DNA from: Flavobacterium fryxellicola
GTDB lineage: Bacteria; Bacteroidota; Bacteroidia; Flavobacteriales; Flavobacteriaceae
DNA length: 64,000 bases
Direction: 5' to 3'
Assembly (NCBI RefSeq): GCF_900143245.1
Contig: NZ_FRDK01000002.1
Location: 186,001-250,000 of the forward strand
Every line of letters starts with the position of its first letter. Positions within the stretch are counted from its first letter, which is position 1. Positions 54,885 through 64,000 of this stretch are shown piece by piece. The notes under the pieces are model-generated. The model saw nothing but the letters and a program-made list of their open reading frames with translations. It was not told the origin of the DNA and made no database searches. Position numbers and translations under genes: made by a program.

Positions 54885-55799
54885 ATGATCAAAAGAACAA
54901 TTCTCATCGAAAGCAAATCTTCAATCACTACAAAAAATCAACAATTAGTAATCAAATCAGAAATAAGAGAAAGTACTATACCAATAGAAGACATTGGCTT
55001 TCTAGTACTTGATCATGTTGAAATCTACTTGAGTATTCCTGCCATGAATCTAGTTGTTGAACATAATACCGCTATTATTATTTGCGGTAGCAACCATCTT
55101 CCCAATGGAATGTTTCTCAACCTCAACAGCCATCATATTCAGCAAGAAATATTCAAAAATCAGATTGAAGCTTCCATTCCACTTAAAAAACAATTATGGC
55201 AGCAAACTATTGTTGAAAAAATTAAAAATCAAGGAGAATTACTAGCCAAGATAACGGCTAGCAAAAACACTTTTGAATTTCTAGCCAGTAAGGTTCTGAG
55301 CGGAGACACATCAAATATGGCAGGCGTTGCGGCACAACAGTATTGGAAAAATTTCCCGCTACCCAATCATGAAAAAGATGGAATAAAAAGAGAACGTTAT
55401 GGCGATTATCCAAATAATTTTTTGAATTATGGTTATGCTATCTTGAGAGCTGCGACCGCACGAGCACTTTCTGGAAGCGGTTTATTGAATACTTTAGGAA
55501 TCCATCATAAAAGTAAATACAATGCTTTTGCTCTTGCGGATGATATTATGGAACCTTTTCGCCCTATTGTGGATGAAAAAGTTTTTGACATTATGAAACG
55601 CTATCCAGAGCAAGAGCTGACCACTACTATAAAAGCGGAACTACTGCAATTACTAACACAAACTGTTTATTTCAAAGAGGAAAAAAGTCCGTTAATGGTT
55701 GGATTACAAAAAACAGCTAGCTCACTCCAACAGTGTTTTACTGGTGACCGTAAAAAAATTAAATATCCTAAATTATGGAACTTAACGGATACCGAATAA
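54885..55799 (+). CDS. cas1: Cas1 integrase subunit, type II-C, with Ala at the catalytic Glu position
   Basis: A 304-residue Cas1. The start MIKRTILIESKSSITTKNQQ, the N-terminal beta domain and the helical catalytic domain match type II Cas1. Of the three metal ligands, His208 (GIHHKSKYNAF) and Glu223 (DIMEPFRP) are present; their spacing of 15 equals that of His205 and Glu220 in S. pyogenes Cas1. The first ligand normally sits in a motif of the form SN-x-E-G-x-AA; here it reads SNMAGVAAQQY, so residue 146 is Ala. If real, this should abolish spacer integration. The frame is otherwise intact. cas2 starts inside its end. Confidence 0.95.
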   Translation: MIKRTILIESKSSITTKNQQLVIKSEIRESTIPIEDIGFLVLDHVEIYLSIPAMNLVVEHNTAIIICGSNHLPNGMFLNLNSHHIQQEIFKNQIEASIPLKKQLWQQTIVEKIKNQGELLAKITASKNTFEFLASKVLSGDTSNMAGVAAQQYWKNFPLPNHEKDGIKRERYGDYPNNFLNYGYAILRAATARALSGSGLLNTLGIHHKSKYNAFALADDIMEPFRPIVDEKVFDIMKRYPEQELTTTIKAELLQLLTQTVYFKEEKSPLMVGLQKTASSLQQCFTGDRKKIKYPKLWNLTDTE

Positions 55800-56104
55800 T
55801 GTGGTTGTTCGTGTTTTTTGATCTACCAACAGAAACCAAAAAAGACAAAAGAAATGCCTCACAATTTCGAGGAAATCTCTTGAAAGATGGTTTTAGCATG
55901 ATGCAATATTCTGTTTACGTACGCCATTGTGCGAGCAGCGAAAGTGCCGATGTACATGAAAAACGCATTCACCGACTATTACCACCCTTAGGAAAAGTGA
56001 GTATTTTACGAATTACGGATAAGCAATTTGGAAATATTTTAAACTTTTGGGGCAAAGCTGAAGTCCCAAAAGCACCGCAACCCACACAATTGGAATTGTT
56101 TTGA
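55775..56104 (+). CDS. cas2: Cas2, type II-C
   Basis: A 109-residue Cas2, the structural partner of Cas1 in spacer acquisition. The ferredoxin-like start YRIMWLFVFFDLPTETKKDK includes the conserved Asp16. The region SMMQYSVYVRHCASSESADV is also typical. I use ATG 55775, giving MELNGYRIMW and a 25-base overlap with cas1. The alternative ATG 55799 (MWLFVFFDLP) overlaps the cas1 stop by one base. No csn2 or cas4 follows, which places the system in subtype II-C. Confidence 0.95.
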   Translation: MELNGYRIMWLFVFFDLPTETKKDKRNASQFRGNLLKDGFSMMQYSVYVRHCASSESADVHEKRIHRLLPPLGKVSILRITDKQFGNILNFWGKAEVPKAPQPTQLELF

Positions 56105-56492: not shown

Positions 56493-57783
56493 AATATCGT
56501 GTTTTCTAATCTTTAATCAAACCACAACTTGGGGAATGTATGAAAACTTTGTTCCGTTGAATATCGTGTTTTCTAATCTTTAATCAAACCACAACTAGTG
56601 ACAAGCGTAGGGAATACAGACATTGAATATCGTGTTTTCTAATCTTTAATCAAACCACAACTATGAATTTATTACAAGCTCTAATCAGCAAGAATATCGT
56701 GTTTTCTAATCTTTAATCAAACCACAACTGGCCTTCCAATTTTGTGTTGAAACATTCAAATATCGTGTTTTCTAATCTTTAATCAAACCACAACTATCTA
56801 GCTTATCGGTGTAAAGCTCCGTGTAATATCGTGTTTTCTAATCTTTAATCAAACCACAACCAGAACTTGCAAGAATAGAAGCAGATAAAGGAATATCGTG
56901 TTTTCTAATCTTTAATCAAACCACAACGCTAAAAGCAAAACACGGATTATTGTATTTGAATATCGTGTTTTCTAATCTTTAATCAAACCACAACTGGTTT
57001 GTGTCTTGGTCATAAACTGATACGAATATCGTGTTTTCTAATCTTTAATCAAACCACAACTAAGTCATAAGGATAGTTTAAATTTAGAGAAATATCGTGT
57101 TTTCTAATCTTTAATCAAACCACAACTGGGCTTCTAATGGATGTTTTTTTTACAGCAATATCGTGTTTTCTAATCTTTAATCAAACCACAACTTGAGCAA
57201 TCAGTATTAGAATATTTCGAAAAATATCGTGTTTTCTAATCTTTAATCAAACCACAACTAATAATGAAAAAACCGTGAAACATTCGGGAATATCGTGTTT
57301 TCTAATCTTTAATCAAACCACAACAATAACTACAAGTGTAATAGCACAGCATGGAATATCGTGTTTTCTAATCTTTAATCAAACCACAACTAGCACCAAA
57401 ATGCTCCATTATACCGTCATAATATCGTGTTTTCTAATCTTTAATCAAACCACAACTTCCATTTGGTCATGGGCTAATCCTAGAGAATATCGTGTTTTCT
57501 AATCTTTAATCAAACCACAACTTTAATCCAAAAATAGGTAATTACTTTTCAAATATCGTGTTTTCTAATCTTTAATCAAACCACAACTGTAGCTCTCGTT
57601 ATTCCTATCTTTTCCGAATATCGTGTTTTCTAATCTTTAATCAAACCACAACACATTTCTTCTCCGTAATCTTCTCCATATTAATATCGTGTTTTCTAAT
57701 CTTTAATCAAACCACAACAACTATCTAACGAACTTACTTTTTCTTTTAATATCGTGTTTTCTAATCTTTAATCAAACCACAAC
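56493..57783 (-). CRISPR. type II-C CRISPR array, 20 repeats and 19 spacers
   Basis: Twenty 36-base repeats, all identical as far as I can read, with spacers of 29 to 31 bases (mostly 30). On the plus strand each repeat begins AATATCGTGTTTTCTAAT and ends TCAAACCACAAC. In crRNA sense (minus strand) it begins GTTGTGGTTTGATTAAAG, the usual type II orientation. Repeats start at 56493, 56560, 56626, 56693, 56759, 56825, 56892, 56959, 57025, 57091, 57157, 57223, 57289, 57355, 57421, 57486, 57552, 57617, 57683 and 57748. No terminal repeat is degenerate. Spacer targets cannot be found without a search. Confidence 0.99.
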
Positions 57784-57838
57784 AGAAAGCTACTGCATCC
57801 CTGCTGGGCGGATGCCATACCTTTCAGTTGTGGTTTGA
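57772..57838 (-). other. cis anti-repeat hairpin at the array end
   Basis: Just outside the last plus-strand repeat, GTTGTGGTTTGA (57827-57838) repeats the first 12 bases of the crRNA-sense repeat in inverted orientation. It is the perfect complement of the 12 bases ending that repeat (57772-57783). Nested inside are GAAAG/CTTTC and GCATCC/GGATGC stems. A leftward pre-crRNA would therefore carry an anti-repeat that folds its first repeat into a hairpin. Confidence 0.8.
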
Positions 57839-58107: not shown

Positions 58108-61100
58108 TTAAATTTGTACAAACTTACCTGTTGGCGAAATTTTAAAATCAATTCCTTCAATTAAAGCATTGAAATTGCTAACTTTAAACTTAATATATGG
58201 AAAATCTTTAAAATTATCTATAACATCCCCACCCTTTGGTGTTGTCAAACCACTTTCTTTAATCTTTACTTTTTTAATTGAACCTATTGAATCACAAACA
58301 TTATTTTCAAAATAATGTTTGTTAAGTAAATCATTCAATTTTTTAAAAAAATCAGACTTTTTTAAATTATCATTTTTAAAATCAGAAAAAACTTTATCCC
58401 ACAAACCTAATTTTTCCATTTCACTTTTTAATTCAAATAATTTTTGTTTATTAATAACATCGTTCATATAAGCAATATTTTCTGTCGAACCTTTTGCAGA
58501 AATACAATACATTAATTTTATTCCGTCTTTATCTAGCCCTGAAATCTTATACAATCTTTTAATGATACTATTAGGATTATTAAAGTCAATCTCTTCCTTT
58601 TCATTTTTGTATAGAATCACATTCAACCCTTTTTTTAAAATAATAGGTATTTTATTTGACCTTAATAAATTAAATCCAGTTTCTATATGCTTTTCGGGTA
58701 CTAAAGAAATTATATCTTTTTTCCTTTCATTTTTATTTTTCAATTTATAATAATAACCAGCGTCCATATAATTAATTAATTCAAAAGCTCTTTCTGTCTT
58801 TCCTTTTTTATCTAACCCTTCATAAATTGCCATTGCAAAATTCTCATCATTTTGTCCATATACTTTTTGTTTGTGTTCGTGACGAGATTTTGATAAAGAA
58901 CTATGTTCTTTTATTTCTAATGGATTTTTCACTGAATTCGCATACAGACGAACTTTGTTAATTGGAATTCCTTTTTCTTCGTTCATCCAAACTTTACCAT
59001 CAATTTTATTTTTTTGTTGTGGATTTGAAGAAAGTATTAAAACCTTACTTGCTATGGCTTCTTTTACTTTTTCTTTTACCATTTCATCTACAATGTTATC
59101 AACATCAGATGCTTTTATACTTTCTAAATCTTTACGAATTACATAACGGATTTCTTCTGTCTTTAATGGGTTTTTAATTGCTCCATAAATACTGTCTTGA
59201 TGCAAAGAACCTCGAATAGTATCACCTTGTTGTAATCTTGGAAGTTTTTTCCCATCCTTGTCTAATTTGTATATAACTTTTCCACTAATATCTTTTTTAG
59301 CAACAGCTTTTCCATTTACATCTCTTTCAATTTCAGCAACATATTGTTTTCTGCCTCGAACTCTAACAATCTTTTTAGATTGCTTTTTTACATTATCTGG
59401 CGTATAATGTGAAACTAAAATTCCTTCTTCAATCTTTTTTAAATCCTCTTTAAAAGTTTTCCAAGGTTTTGATTCCGCTACTATTTTTCTAGCTTCGGTG
59501 ATTTGTTCTTTATCTTCTAACGTCCAAGCGTGTGCCAACACATCATACTTATCTTTAGTCATACACGCAATAGTAATAGCATCTATAGTGTGATGCGTAT
59601 GTTTGCTTCTGTCTTTTTCTTTAAAATACTTTTTTCCGTTTTCTTGATAACTTTCCTGAATGCCCCAAATTTTCCTAAACTCGGCAACCATTCCGCCTTT
59701 TACACTTTCTACTCTATTGAAATACGATTTCAAATAGGCTTGTGCATATCTTGTAATAATTCCTGTGTCTGGAATTTGACTGTTTTTAAATCCTACTTTT
59801 GGCTCAGTCCAAATAAAACGATCGTATTTGCCTTGAAGATAATCGCGTCTTAAAGTCAAATAATGTCTTCTTCTTATTTTTTTGTCTTTAGCTTCTTTGG
59901 TTGCTGCTGTTTTTGTAGAGCGAATAATCATTTCTATTTCTCTGCTCAAATTATCAGCTTCTTCTTTCCAATGTGCAATTCTTGGTAAAATTTCTAAATG
60001 ATTGCCTAATTCAAAAGGCATTTTTTGCTTTTTAACATCTCTGTTAAACTTCTGACTACAAAGCGTTTTATTCATTTGCGAATTATCTTGCGAGATACTT
60101 CTTGGAACCGTGTGTTCTATATCGTAGGCAGGATTATCTCCAATAATATCGCATATGCTAATACTGTTTCCATTCTCATAAATCTCTTTCCTGTCTTGCT
60201 CAATCCATAGTTGATAACGTAATAAATCATCAACCGTTGGCTCGATTTCTTTATTACATTCTGCTAAATAGAGTTTCTTAATTTCATCTCTATACTTTTC
60301 ACGCTCTTTTTTATTCTCATTTTGATAATCCTGAATTCCTTTTCGTTTATTGGCATCGTTCAATTCACGAGCCATTTCAATATGAATTCGAGTAGATGAA
60401 TCTACTTGTTCTTCAACTATCAATGTATTCAAAACTTTACGCAATTGATGCAAAGCACGCATTGCCATTGGATTTTTAATAGATGAAGTTAACGGACTTC
60501 CTAAAATAAGTTGCCCTGTTTCTGTTCCATCTTTATCTTTCACTATTTGTTTTTTAAAAACTTCAATGTCTGATGGATGATATAGTTTTTTTAACTGTTT
60601 GGCATTATTGCAAAAAACCTCTCCATCTTGATTTTCTCCTTTTAGAAATTCTAAAACTTTTTCATCTAAACGCTTTACTTTTATGAATTCATGAGCCTTT
60701 AATTGTTCAATAAAAACAGGAAATAATTCGTTTAAAATAGTTTCTTGCTTTATACCATCATCGATGTGATGAAATTTAAAAAAAGAAACGAGTTTTTTAC
60801 TTAAATCCTTTCTATAAGTATCTGCTGCTTCTTTAGAGTAGTAGGCTCCATCAACTTTGCATTCTTTAATTAATCCGTTTACAACTTCCAGAAGTCCATT
60901 ATCAACAATATTATTGGCTATAATTGCAGCAATCTTGTCTTGAATATATTTTCTTTGTCCTAAATCATTCCAAATTACCTCATCCACAATACTTTCAATA
61001 TTTGCCATAAACACAGCGTGTGAATACAATAATCCTTCTCTCATATAAGGAAGAATCTTGTTTATCGCATTTAGACTCAAATTTCCAAAATCCTTTTTCA

Positions 61101-62691
61101 ATTTAATCTTGCTGAAAGCCTTGGCATTTTTATCCTCCAATCCTAATTTATTTTTTGCATATTCGTACAAATAAATATCTGAAGTGGAAACAGATAACAA
61201 ATGCCATAAATCCTTATAATTAACGGTTCTGGAAACTTCAATACCTTTTGAATTAGTCGTTTTATAGATAAATGATTTTGTCTTCCAATCTTCACCAACT
61301 ACACTCTTTAATGAAGCTGAAACTGGACAACCCGAAACTGTATCTGTCGGCTTATAATTAAACCAATAATGAAAACTATCTCTTTTTGAAGATTTATAAA
61401 ATCCAAAAGTTGCTCCTTTCTCAATCAATTCTTTAGCTAAATCTTCAAAATTGAAGTTGTCTTTTTTTCTTAAAAATTTAGGAATTAAATTTAATTTTTC
61501 TTCTTGACTTAAAAATCTCAACACTTTTTCAGACTGAGTACCTATTTTAATGGTATTTAAATATTCCCACATTCTTTTTTCTTCAAAATCAGGATGTGAA
61601 ATAGCACAACGAGATTTGCTTTTTTCAAAGGAACATTTCCCTATTAATCCTTTTTGAGATTTTAAAGGACGTTGAAAAAAGATTGCTTTGTATAACTCTT
61701 TAGCCAAACCCTCAAACTTCTTTTCTGGTAGTTTTTCATTTTGATTAATTGAACCAATTCCTTGAAATTTACAAATTATTTTAAATTCTTCAAGATAGTG
61801 ATCTTCTCTTGAAGTGTATTGATTTCTAATTCTTTCTTTATTATATAAGCTGAAAAAATATTGTCCTAAAGTTTTAAAATTTCCTTCAAGCATAGCTTGA
61901 GATATATCTTTAATTTTACCTTTTACTTTACCTAAAACATCTTTTTTGTTTAATCGTTCAATAATTTCTGCTTTGCCTTTTTCAAAATCAGTATCATTCT
62001 TTTTAACAATTGCTTGAATTGATCTATATAAAGAAACTAATTTTTTATCCCCTTCATCTAAATCTTTTGCAAAACCGCCTTTTTCATTAGCATCAAGAAT
62101 TCCTGTATCAAAAAAATAATCTTTTAAACTTGTAAGAATCTCATCAGTAGAATTTAAATCTTCAACGAGTGCTTCAATTTTTGGACAATGTTCTTCTAAA
62201 ATTCCTTCAGCAGATTGGTCTAAACGATTACTCAAAAAACCTCTTCTTTGGGCAATATGATAGAATGCACGACCTACTTCAAACAAAGTAACTTTTTGCT
62301 TACTTGCTTTATCTCTAAAAAAGTAAGGATTAATGTTTTCGTCATCACTAGTCCTTAACCATTCCAGAAATTCAGGATTAAGTGGATATTCTTTAAAACC
62401 AGATTTTTTCCACTCCTCCACTTCTTCAATGGAGAGCGGACACATCCCGTTTAAGGATAAAACTTTTAAAGTTTCATATTTTCTTAATTTTCTACGGTAT
62501 TTTATTTTTCGAGCGCTTCTGTAACCTGTTCGTTCAGCAGCGCGAGAACTTTCGATTCCTTTCTCTGATTTTACTCCTTCCGAAAATATTCTAACTCCTT
62601 TATCAACTAATGAGAAATCATTTCCATCTTTTTCCACTATCGCCCACCCAATACTATTTGTCCCTAAATCCAATCCTAATATTTTTGCCAT
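58108..62691 (-). CDS. cas9: Cas9 effector nuclease, large type II-C
   Basis: A 1527-residue Cas9. RuvC-I is GLDLGTNSIGWA with catalytic Asp8. The arginine-rich bridge follows (about 55-75, RTGYRSARKIKYRRKLRKYE). RuvC-II is IHIEMAREL with Glu772. HNH is DIEHTVPRS with His860, and RuvC-III is HTHHTIDAIT with Asp1037. All nuclease residues are intact, so it should cut both DNA strands. The protein is longer than Campylobacter or Neisseria II-C Cas9 (about 1000-1100 residues) but in the range of Bacteroidetes enzymes. It is on the opposite strand from cas1-cas2, divergent from tracrRNA, and followed by a small ORF. Confidence 0.98.
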   Translation of the reverse strand: MAKILGLDLGTNSIGWAIVEKDGNDFSLVDKGVRIFSEGVKSEKGIESSRAAERTGYRSARKIKYRRKLRKYETLKVLSLNGMCPLSIEEVEEWKKSGFKEYPLNPEFLEWLRTSDDENINPYFFRDKASKQKVTLFEVGRAFYHIAQRRGFLSNRLDQSAEGILEEHCPKIEALVEDLNSTDEILTSLKDYFFDTGILDANEKGGFAKDLDEGDKKLVSLYRSIQAIVKKNDTDFEKGKAEIIERLNKKDVLGKVKGKIKDISQAMLEGNFKTLGQYFFSLYNKERIRNQYTSREDHYLEEFKIICKFQGIGSINQNEKLPEKKFEGLAKELYKAIFFQRPLKSQKGLIGKCSFEKSKSRCAISHPDFEEKRMWEYLNTIKIGTQSEKVLRFLSQEEKLNLIPKFLRKKDNFNFEDLAKELIEKGATFGFYKSSKRDSFHYWFNYKPTDTVSGCPVSASLKSVVGEDWKTKSFIYKTTNSKGIEVSRTVNYKDLWHLLSVSTSDIYLYEYAKNKLGLEDKNAKAFSKIKLKKDFGNLSLNAINKILPYMREGLLYSHAVFMANIESIVDEVIWNDLGQRKYIQDKIAAIIANNIVDNGLLEVVNGLIKECKVDGAYYSKEAADTYRKDLSKKLVSFFKFHHIDDGIKQETILNELFPVFIEQLKAHEFIKVKRLDEKVLEFLKGENQDGEVFCNNAKQLKKLYHPSDIEVFKKQIVKDKDGTETGQLILGSPLTSSIKNPMAMRALHQLRKVLNTLIVEEQVDSSTRIHIEMARELNDANKRKGIQDYQNENKKEREKYRDEIKKLYLAECNKEIEPTVDDLLRYQLWIEQDRKEIYENGNSISICDIIGDNPAYDIEHTVPRSISQDNSQMNKTLCSQKFNRDVKKQKMPFELGNHLEILPRIAHWKEEADNLSREIEMIIRSTKTAATKEAKDKKIRRRHYLTLRRDYLQGKYDRFIWTEPKVGFKNSQIPDTGIITRYAQAYLKSYFNRVESVKGGMVAEFRKIWGIQESYQENGKKYFKEKDRSKHTHHTIDAITIACMTKDKYDVLAHAWTLEDKEQITEARKIVAESKPWKTFKEDLKKIEEGILVSHYTPDNVKKQSKKIVRVRGRKQYVAEIERDVNGKAVAKKDISGKVIYKLDKDGKKLPRLQQGDTIRGSLHQDSIYGAIKNPLKTEEIRYVIRKDLESIKASDVDNIVDEMVKEKVKEAIASKVLILSSNPQQKNKIDGKVWMNEEKGIPINKVRLYANSVKNPLEIKEHSSLSKSRHEHKQKVYGQNDENFAMAIYEGLDKKGKTERAFELINYMDAGYYYKLKNKNERKKDIISLVPEKHIETGFNLLRSNKIPIILKKGLNVILYKNEKEEIDFNNPNSIIKRLYKISGLDKDGIKLMYCISAKGSTENIAYMNDVINKQKLFELKSEMEKLGLWDKVFSDFKNDNLKKSDFFKKLNDLLNKHYFENNVCDSIGSIKKVKIKESGLTTPKGGDVIDNFKDFPYIKFKVSNFNALIEGIDFKISPTGKFVQI

Positions 62692-62760
62692 GTCAACTCT
62701 ATTTTGTAAGAATTTTTAAAACTACAAAGAAAATATTTAATCGTTTTACGGTTTTCCTCA

Positions 62761-62791
62761 TTGCAACTTAACTATTTTTTGTTTACGTTTG
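62761..62791 (+). promoter_or_regulatory. complete bipartite promoter of tracrRNA
   Basis: TTG (62761-62763), 20 bases, then TACGTTTG (62784-62791) matches the consensus. Transcription should start near 62797, immediately before the anti-repeat. Confidence 0.68.
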
Positions 62792-62796
62792 TATCT

Positions 62797-62883
62797 GATT
62801 AAAATTTCTAATCTTTAATCTTATCACAATAAGGCTATATGCCGTAGATGAAAATCTTTAGTCCTGCTTCGGTGGGACTTTTC
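62797..62883 (+). ncRNA. tracrRNA
   Basis: The anti-repeat (about 62800-62830) pairs with the crRNA repeat: 16 continuous base pairs (TTTCTAATCTTTAATC), an internal loop of four against four bases, then six pairs (CACAAT, one G-U). It is followed by three hairpins: GGC-TATAT-GCC, AGAT-GAAA-ATCT and AGTCCTGC-TTCG-GTGGGACT, the last with a T-run. The order anti-repeat, small nexus stem and terminator is typical of type II tracrRNA. Length is about 87 bases. It is transcribed divergently from cas9 from its own promoter. Confidence 0.9.
62860..62883 (+). terminator. terminator of tracrRNA
   Basis: The stem AGTCC(TGC)/(GTG)GGACT is capped by a TTCG tetraloop and followed by TTT. Confidence 0.85.
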
Positions 62884-62888
62884 ATTTT

Positions 62889-62983
62889 ATCAAAATTTCA
62901 CTTATTCAATAGTATTGCAATAATTTGCTACAGCAGAGTAGATTAAACTCTTTATTCCTGCATCGATGGATTTTTTTTGGAAA
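62889..62983 (+). ncRNA. second, diverged tracrRNA-like unit
   Basis: Starting at the shared AAAATTTC, this stretch aligns collinearly with the tracrRNA just upstream. A CAATAA at the nexus entry is followed by a short stem (TGC-TACA-GCA instead of GGC-TATAT-GCC), GAGT-AGATTAA-ACTC, then TTCCTGCATCG (tracrRNA: GTCCTGCTTCG), GATGGA and eight T. The anti-repeat part has drifted and no longer pairs well with the repeats of this array. No clear promoter was found, so it may be read through from the first copy or be silent. Confidence 0.65.
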
Positions 62984-63010
62984 TAATTTACACTTCTAAC
63001 CTCTAAACCC

Positions 63011-63090
63011 TAGCCCTGATGGCAGCGGCATCCTTTTTAGTTTGCTTTTTAGCAAACAAAAAGATACAGCGAACAGCAGGAAATGGCTCC
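63011..63090 (+). repeat. dispersed intergenic element, copy D
   Basis: It starts TAGCCCTGATGGCAGCGGCA, has a central GTTTGCT-TTTT-AGCAAAC hairpin and ends GAACAGCAGGAAATGGCTCC. The ends match copies A to C. Confidence 0.82.
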
Positions 63091-63206
63091 AAATGAAAAC
63101 ATTTTTGAACATAAAATGACTATTAATAATGGTTTTATTTTGTACTTTCATACTGCTTTAGTATCTTTCGCAATAGATATAAATACAAACCTTACACATT
63201 GAAAAA

Positions 63207-64000
63207 ATGTTAGAAGAAAAGAATGATAACCTGTCTCGTCAGGAAAACGAAGCAGATGGAAATTTAGAAAACAATGCGACGGCATCCGATCAGTCCCAAA
63301 AGGAACACCTTGAAGCAACGCCTGCAGCAGAACCAAGTGATATGCCAGCTGAAGATAACGCAGTTGTCCCTGATGAAGCCTCCTCCACTGATACTGCTAT
63401 GGAAACTAAAAACCAGAAGGCTCTAGATGCCATTACGGATACTAACGCAGAAGAAAGTGAAGACGAGACGCTTAAAGATCGTCATGAAATTTCTATGCAA
63501 GATTATGATACTTTATCCTTAGAACAACTTGTTGAGGAACTGAAAAACCTAGTTTCCAATGAAAAAGTAATGTCTTTTAAAGATCACATAGAAGACGTGA
63601 AAAAAGCATTCTTAGCAAAATACAACCACCTTATAGAAGAGAAGAAAGAGGAATTTCTTGCTGAAAACCAAGATCCTAATGAAGATTTTCACTATCACTC
63701 GCCATTAAAAACCCAATTTGATAAGTTCTATTCTCAATTCAGAGATACTAAAAATACTCATTTCAAGAGTTTACAAACCAATCTAAAAACAAATTTAGAG
63801 CATCGTTTGGCTATTGTTGAAGAAATAAAAGAGCTGATTAATCCACAAGAGAACATCAAAGATACCTTGAAACATTTTAATGATTTAAGAGAACGATGGA
63901 AGAATGCTGGTCCGATTCCTAAAGACAAATACAACCACGTATGGAACAATTTCCATTTTCATGTGGAAAATTTCTACGATTATTTACACTTAGACAGAGA
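63207..64000 (+). CDS. DUF349 domain protein, N-terminal part (cut by window edge)
   Basis: The frame opens at ATG 63207 and runs past the right edge; 264 codons are visible. A low-complexity acidic N-terminus (about residues 1-95, rich in Glu, Asp, Ala and Asn) precedes helical segments of the DUF349 type, for example FNDLRERWKNAGPIPKDKYN near residue 230. DUF349 proteins are long coiled-coil proteins of unknown function. The neighbouring dispersed element ends 116 bases before the start. Nothing links it to the cas genes. Confidence 0.85.
   Translation, partial: MLEEKNDNLSRQENEADGNLENNATASDQSQKEHLEATPAAEPSDMPAEDNAVVPDEASSTDTAMETKNQKALDAITDTNAEESEDETLKDRHEISMQDYDTLSLEQLVEELKNLVSNEKVMSFKDHIEDVKKAFLAKYNHLIEEKKEEFLAENQDPNEDFHYHSPLKTQFDKFYSQFRDTKNTHFKSLQTNLKTNLEHRLAIVEEIKELINPQENIKDTLKHFNDLRERWKNAGPIPKDKYNHVWNNFHFHVENFYDYLHLDR

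Follow-up and report, generated by a model that had tools for sequence, protein, structure and literature searches.

A second tracrRNA-like unit, most likely decayed, directly after the tracrRNA of a type II CRISPR-Cas locus in Flavobacterium fryxellicola

The CRISPR-Cas locus of F. fryxellicola

The window analysed here is a stretch of 64,000 nucleotides from the genome of F. fryxellicola (3.7 Mb, completeness 99.99%; labelled G000 in our comparisons, contig C29, 186001-250000). At its end it contains a type II CRISPR-Cas locus flanked by the shikimate dehydrogenase gene (aroE) and a DUF349 gene. The only cas genes seen are cas1, cas2 and cas9, and we take the locus to be of subtype II-C on that basis. 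The cas1 and cas2 genes (54885..56104, plus strand) match TIGR03639 and TIGR01573, the CRISPR array has 20 copies of a 36-nt repeat that are identical as listed (56493..57783, minus strand), and cas9 (58108..62691, minus strand; TIGR01865, 419.6 bits) is divergent from two tracrRNA-like units, here called U1 and U2. A Flavo-1 RNA (RF01705; 63008..63087, plus strand; 69.4 bits, gathering score 42) lies directly 3' of U2, within the flank common to the window and its single-unit relatives. No match to 62700-63200 was found in the plasmid records searched.

On the crRNA strand the window also has, immediately ahead of the first repeat, an inverted half-repeat (AACCACAAC) plus a stem (57753-57837, minus strand). 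This leader-repeat hairpin was found in 21 of the 31 arrays listed (the window, L084, L085, L086, L147 and others), and its stem bases vary between genomes with the pairing kept (TGAAAG/CTTTCA, GGAAAATC/GATTTTCC, GGAAATCG/CGATTTCC). Leader-repeat hairpins have been published for II-A and Cas13 systems (PMC13187072, in the part of the article available), and the accessible part of PMC12080349 describes mutated extra repeats, terminators and RNA secondary structures for II-C. The II-C hairpin may therefore be already known.

The canonical tracrRNA, U1 (62797..62887, plus strand), scores 115.6 bits with model R1, which has U1 in its training set. It consists of an anti-repeat (62797 to about 62831, plus strand), a nexus (62833-62843, plus strand) and a terminal hairpin (62860-62879, plus strand) that matches in the terminator scan and is followed by the T-tract TTTTCATTTT. 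Upstream there is a promoter-like site (62761..62791, plus strand) made of TTG, 20 nt and TACGTTTG. The latter has the form TAnnTTTG, the promoter form of Bacteroidota, and is the only such site on the plus strand within 62691-63210; among canonical units, 86 of 119 have one no more than about 45 nt upstream. The duplex of U1 with the array repeat has a predicted energy of -28.6 kcal/mol, reached by none of 500 shuffles, and the fold z-score of U1 is -2.64. In the predicted fold a second T-run (UUUUAUC) pairs with GAUGAAA upstream, and this may be a terminator of another shape. The T-tract TTTTCATTTT was considered as a weakened terminator allowing read-through, being present in G000 and G285, both with a U2; this link is undercut by its presence in G168, G248, G025 and G569, where no U2 was detected.

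A homologue of the tracrRNA directly after U1

Directly after U1 lies U2 (62889..62978, plus strand; 67.1 bits with R1, which was trained on U2 as well), noticed in the initial annotation as a tandem second tracrRNA-like unit. The two units align collinearly over about 90 nt with 68% identity, and AAAATTTC, CAATAA and the T8 end reported for U2 are all present. Their local alignment score of 68 stands 12 sd above the mean of 5000 dinucleotide shuffles (mean 21.2, sd 3.8, maximum 41), none of which aligned equally well, and the best score among 3864 other slices of the window was 46, located inside the CRISPR array. Furthermore, an HMM built from 76 unique first or sole units, second units excluded, gave U2 20.4 bits, and the maximum for 1020 shuffled downstream stretches in the same HMM was 4.4 bits. 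The shuffle test and this HMM confirm the tandem unit. An alignment no better than shuffled A+T-rich sequence, or a likeness due to chance in such DNA plus a terminator, would have base composition in its favour and nothing more; it is refuted by both tests and also by homologous second units in other species, and its probability is close to nil. By sequence homology, U2 is a real tracrRNA homologue.

U2 belongs to another nexus class

The nexus-like part of U2 (62924..62937, plus strand) reads TTTGC-TACA-GCAGA. It had been described as the GGC/GCC stem of U1 rebuilt with different bases; by alignment it belongs instead to another class (AATAATCCGCC..GGCGGAGTAGA, here the CCGCC class) and is a decayed form of it, the class of the window U2 being assigned by eye. 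The common nexus, GGC-TATAT-GCC, was present in 115 of 120 distinct unit-plus-flank sequences, second units included, with two CCGCC and three cut off or unclear. The two CCGCC units are that of G328, where it is the only unit, and the second one of G017, taken to be F. granuli DSM 19729. By alignment the class also includes the U2 of G285 and, as the decayed form, that of the window, both outside the 120. Of the four second units that follow their first unit directly, three are thus of this class (G000, G285 and G017; not G634). Among all seven second units with a nexus the number is three, compared with one, that of G328, among about 113 first or sole ones (Fisher p 0.0005). G328 has its own repeat variant, which fits its tracrRNA, and the arrays of G017 and G285 carry the same repeat as the window.

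In addition, the U2s of G000, G285 and G017 are alike at seven columns at which U1 is different, and at five further columns the U2s of the window and G285 are alike against both U1 and the U2 of G017. Judged from the nexus class and the columns common to the U2s, U2 is an older second type and not a recent copy of the window U1. A tree of the units gave a clade of four CCGCC units (support 97/87) that collapses when the nexus columns are omitted, the U2s of G000 and G285 then pairing at 79/81; the sequences are too short for a firm result, and the U2 of G284 was left out. From nexus to end the three U2s share 70-79% identity, and between G000 and G285 the identity of the Cas9 N-termini is only about 43% (in the Cas9 tree, 44 of 88 loci, G285 among them, were dropped because the match was too short). 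Such similarity despite divergent Cas9 proteins suggests that constraint on U2 lasted until rather recent times, or that U2 was transferred laterally.

Pairing, folding and expression signals of U2

The anti-repeat-like part of U2 (62890..62923, plus strand) has lost its complementarity to the array repeat. As the initial annotation had anticipated, it does not pair with this repeat: the predicted energy is -6.2 kcal/mol, and 424 of 500 shuffles are equal or better. The same annotation took hairpins retained with changed bases as a sign of selection, which our results do not bear out. Predicted pair probabilities are 0.001-0.002 in the nexus (for the isolated RNA; the Cas9-bound fold may differ) and 0.005-0.006 in the middle hairpin, so that neither is predicted to form. 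In the terminal part (62954..62978, plus strand), which has CCTGCATCGATGGA and the T8, the hairpin is largely lost, with four of the eight pairs of the U1 hairpin kept when counted in the aligned register. The fold z-score of U2 is -0.58, and 48 of 200 shuffles fold equally well. A C-G pair of the nexus stem has become U-A, a change of compensatory form. When three random transitions are placed on the four G-C pairs of a CCGCC-type stem, 16 of 56 draws leave all pairs standard, which makes the changed bases a weak sign. Selection is further weakened as a reading by the identity between the U2s of G000, G285 and G017, 65-70% versus 82-98% between their U1s.

Regarding expression, no TAnnTTTG other than that of U1 was found upstream of U2 on the plus strand within 62691-63210, and the terminator scan had the U1 terminator as its only match, with none at U2 despite the T8. 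The only sigma-70-like match lies inside U2, and shuffles average 2.6. The anti-repeat of U1 pairs with U2 at -10.0 kcal/mol (42 of 400 shuffles as good). Pairing of U2 with the whole of U1, with the repeat and with the start of the cas9 mRNA was considered and rejected (291, 183 and 84 of 400 shuffles as good, respectively). The proposal of a regulatory RNA similar to tracr-L or scaRNA consequently finds no TAnnTTTG, no terminator match and no notable pairing with tracrRNA or repeat to sustain it. U2 would at most be co-transcribed by read-through from U1, and would supply Cas9 with no working dual RNA for the window array. These predictions of folding, pairing and signals argue against a function of U2 and are no proof, as an RNA with Cas9-dependent folding could fail each of them. 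The window U2 is probably not an active new RNA.

U2 could also have served an orphan array elsewhere, another of the early suggestions. A search of the same genome with the U2 anti-repeat pattern CTTATTCAATAGTATTGCAA (20 bases, 3 mismatches) found U2 itself and four scattered single sites (C15:72620, C29:405919, C35:19187 and C35:472926), with no array, and the reversed control pattern had 0 sites. As for a second CRISPR-Cas system, a single cas1 was found, along with one complete cas9 and one 45-residue match. The orphan array is thus not supported by this pattern search and the cas gene counts. On contig C19 (about 102008; L110 1501-1803) we noticed an ORF of 100 residues with a Cas9-like, stand-alone RuvC-I start (MGKYLGLDLGTNSIGWAIID; TIGR01865 1.1e-9 over 39 residues, below the cut-off) and, by eye, an apparent C-terminal membrane segment; it adjoins a gene weakly similar to AbiEii, below the cut-off as well.

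Second units in relatives

Model R1 was built from 18 units, second units included, and run in Infernal with stricter filters that can miss weak units, on partly overlapping draws of 398 genus, 397 family and 296 order genomes. A unit of at least 70 bits was present in 84 of the 398 genus genomes, as counted from the listing. A second unit was found no more than 1 kb downstream of nine of 130 distinct first units, the window included (one of the 130 has less than 100 nt downstream, a few of them are orphan units, and the same genome may be present under two labels). Hence the second unit is not missing from relatives, and tandem or relic tracrRNAs are a real, recurrent and rare feature. A U2 DNA query against 100 relatives gave a full-length match to the window unit only, the rest being short and weak ones in six other genomes; this query is insensitive, as it missed G017, which was among the 100.

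Second units are directly adjacent in G000, G285, G017 and G634, and spaced in G743, G284 and G203 (about 310, 340 and 630 nt after the first unit). Only a tail remains in G185, G753 and G238, the last at 19.5 bits with the 76-unit HMM, under the cut used for the count above. The unit appears intact in G017 and G203, and the anti-repeat is missing in G284 and G743. In F. granuli (G017) the duplex of U2 with the repeat has practically the energy of that of U1 (-28.7 vs -28.6 kcal/mol), within the range of first-unit anti-repeats (-16.7 to -28.8 kcal/mol, most near -28), and the predicted nexus and terminal hairpin are kept (fold z -1.75). The G203 U2 keeps repeat pairing (-25.9 kcal/mol) and the terminal hairpin. 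The G285 U2 pairs at -11.5 kcal/mol (17 of 500 shuffles as good) with a fold z of +0.24. No TAnnTTTG was found before the four directly adjacent second units in the stretch examined.

These data bear on whether selection keeps U2 as a second, functional RNA, which might be a tracrRNA used with other guides, a decoy that binds Cas9, or a regulator. The intact units of G017 and G203, and a nexus class common to three lineages, would be expected in that case. However, the window U2 has neither repeat pairing nor promoter or terminator match, the folds of the window and G285 U2s are no better than z -0.58 and +0.24, and no second unit was found in F. omnivorum or in five loci with the same DUF349 start within 400 nt (G029, G168, G047, G368 and G110). 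We consider a selected function of U2 very doubtful.

Some other features were observed at these loci. The second units without anti-repeat of G743 (L191) and G284 (L087) have a TAnnTTTG upstream, and their upstream stretches align with a score of 56 (1000 shuffles: mean 36, sd 5.5, maximum 59), a weak likeness. The second unit of G634 (L201) has two apparent inserted palindromes, in the nexus loop and the middle hairpin (TCCGCC..GGCGGA). In L200, L202, L204, L094 and L061 the tracrRNA seems to start with a nearly full repeat; in L200 an array-end motif precedes it, and in two of them, L094 and L061, it lies next to the array. In these five loci the tracrRNA seems to be a terminal repeat.

History of the site

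The closest site is that of F. omnivorum (L124; G1052, by the same place also G892), in which the flank from just after U2 is 95.2% identical over 227 nt, U1 is identical to that of the window, and U2 is absent. Cas1 is 95% identical (160 residues compared), Cas2 83.5% and the start of DUF349 92%, whereas Cas9 falls from 90% in the first 100 residues to 64% overall. This drop of Cas9 beside the high identity of cas1 indicates that cas9 has been exchanged at this site, and that recombination, as read from the sequences, is active there. Because U2 differs from U1 by a third, U2 would be older than the split from F. omnivorum. The tandem pair would then predate this split and F. omnivorum would have lost U2; alternatively, the pair might have reached the window lineage by recombination.

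With such exchange at hand, U2 could be the scar of a cassette exchange, in which a foreign cas9-tracr block recombined in beside a resident tracrRNA and left its remains at the edge of the locus. Besides the cas9 exchange between the window and F. omnivorum lineages, flank comparisons elsewhere are of this kind. In G185 the flank following the tail and that following the single unit of G248 have 92.6% identity over 569 nt. The G238 flank is 89.2% identical over 558 nt with F. covae, in which no tail was found. In G743 the flank after the second unit is 80% identical (405 aligned columns) to the single-unit flank of Confluentibacter lentus (L115) and G546 (L182), and 104 nt of the sequence separating its units are 86.5% identical to the flank that follows the G288 unit. 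These three cases fit, at the sequence level, a locus replacement that left remains. In G387 (L078 2620-2780) a Cas1 fragment (IHHKSKYNAFALADDI) runs into a tracrRNA tail, an apparent scar of a deleted CRISPR-Cas locus. At the F. granuli site, the G323 flank is 95.6% identical over 589 nt, starting about 780 nt after the single unit of G323.

At the window, however, both flanks of the U1-U2 pair are similar to F. omnivorum (88% before, 95% after), donor flank between U1 and U2 is absent, and the identity changes inside cas9 and not at U2. The blastn flank comparison gave no support for a scar in G203 and G284 either, and a scar leaves unexplained the rare nexus class common to three adjacent second units. 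A scar is an unlikely origin for U2. The account that we favour, and hold to be probable with real room for error, is that U2 is a tracrRNA gene in decay and the second one of an old tandem pair; it is of another nexus class, and its intact form is seen in F. granuli. The window copy itself is most likely decayed. It had also been proposed that U2 is the relic of a replaced repeat type; the relic is the best supported part of this proposal, and a replaced repeat type is unnecessary because the intact U2 of F. granuli pairs with the same repeat.

A broader possibility, which we regard as distinctly unlikely, is that in Flavobacteriaceae II-C loci tandem co-transcribed tracrRNAs of different nexus class serve one array and one Cas9. 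The CCGCC partner, which would be in decay in the window and G285 and intact in F. granuli, would have its own role, as a scaffold altering Cas9 loading or silencing Cas9.

Implications and comparison with known systems

Tandem and relic tracrRNAs would show II-C loci swapping parts while the tracrRNA stays almost unchanged. Between the window and G285 the first units have 98% identity, at about 43% for the Cas9 N-termini, and near-identical first units were seen in genomes with about 43-48% identity of this Cas9 region. This contrasts with the exchange of dual-RNAs following Cas9 phylogeny, as stated in the portion of PMC3936727 available. Relic tracrRNAs may mark lost or replaced CRISPR-Cas sites, and programs that predict tracrRNAs automatically could be misled by them. 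With the intact F. granuli pair it becomes testable whether one Cas9 uses two tracrRNAs with different nexus hairpins, and with what consequence; this pair is a better experimental subject than that of the window. The evolution of tracrRNAs is reportedly treated by Faure et al. 2019. Among titles and the beginnings of abstracts of the open-licence literature, no tandem or relic tracrRNAs were found, and none is named in the available parts of PMC6882279, PMC12080349, PMC6199352, PMC10309648 and PMC3936727.

The longer tracr-L extends the tracrRNA on its 5' side, whereas U2 lies 3' of it; a possible role as regulator would be common to both. In type II-A this longer form, a natural single guide, is described as a regulator that acts with Cas9 to repress cas genes (PMC11417352, in the part available). 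The scaRNA, according to the accessible parts of PMC6199352 and, for the Neisseria case, PMC13431127, has repeat-strand sequence that is in part complementary to tracrRNA and, as a rule, a TSS and a terminator of its own. U2 is similar as a small RNA candidate in a CRISPR-Cas locus and differs in having neither tracrRNA complementarity nor TSS and terminator signals, as judged by sequence matches only. In the F. psychrophilum II-C locus, cas9 was exchanged with the neighbourhood kept, similar to the swap between the window and F. omnivorum, and the available part of that article mentions no second tracrRNA (PMC10309648).

Compared with the type II-C tracrRNA in its Flavobacteriaceae form, U2 has the same order of parts, a site upstream of and divergent from cas9 and about 90 nt that can be aligned, but it lacks array pairing, predicted hairpins and a promoter or terminator match, and is of the other nexus class. 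The F. granuli pair is similar in that its second unit immediately follows the first, in the same orientation, with a CCGCC-type nexus and no TAnnTTTG of its own, and differs in that its U2 keeps pairing, nexus and terminal hairpin, and that the terminal hairpin of its U1 is different.
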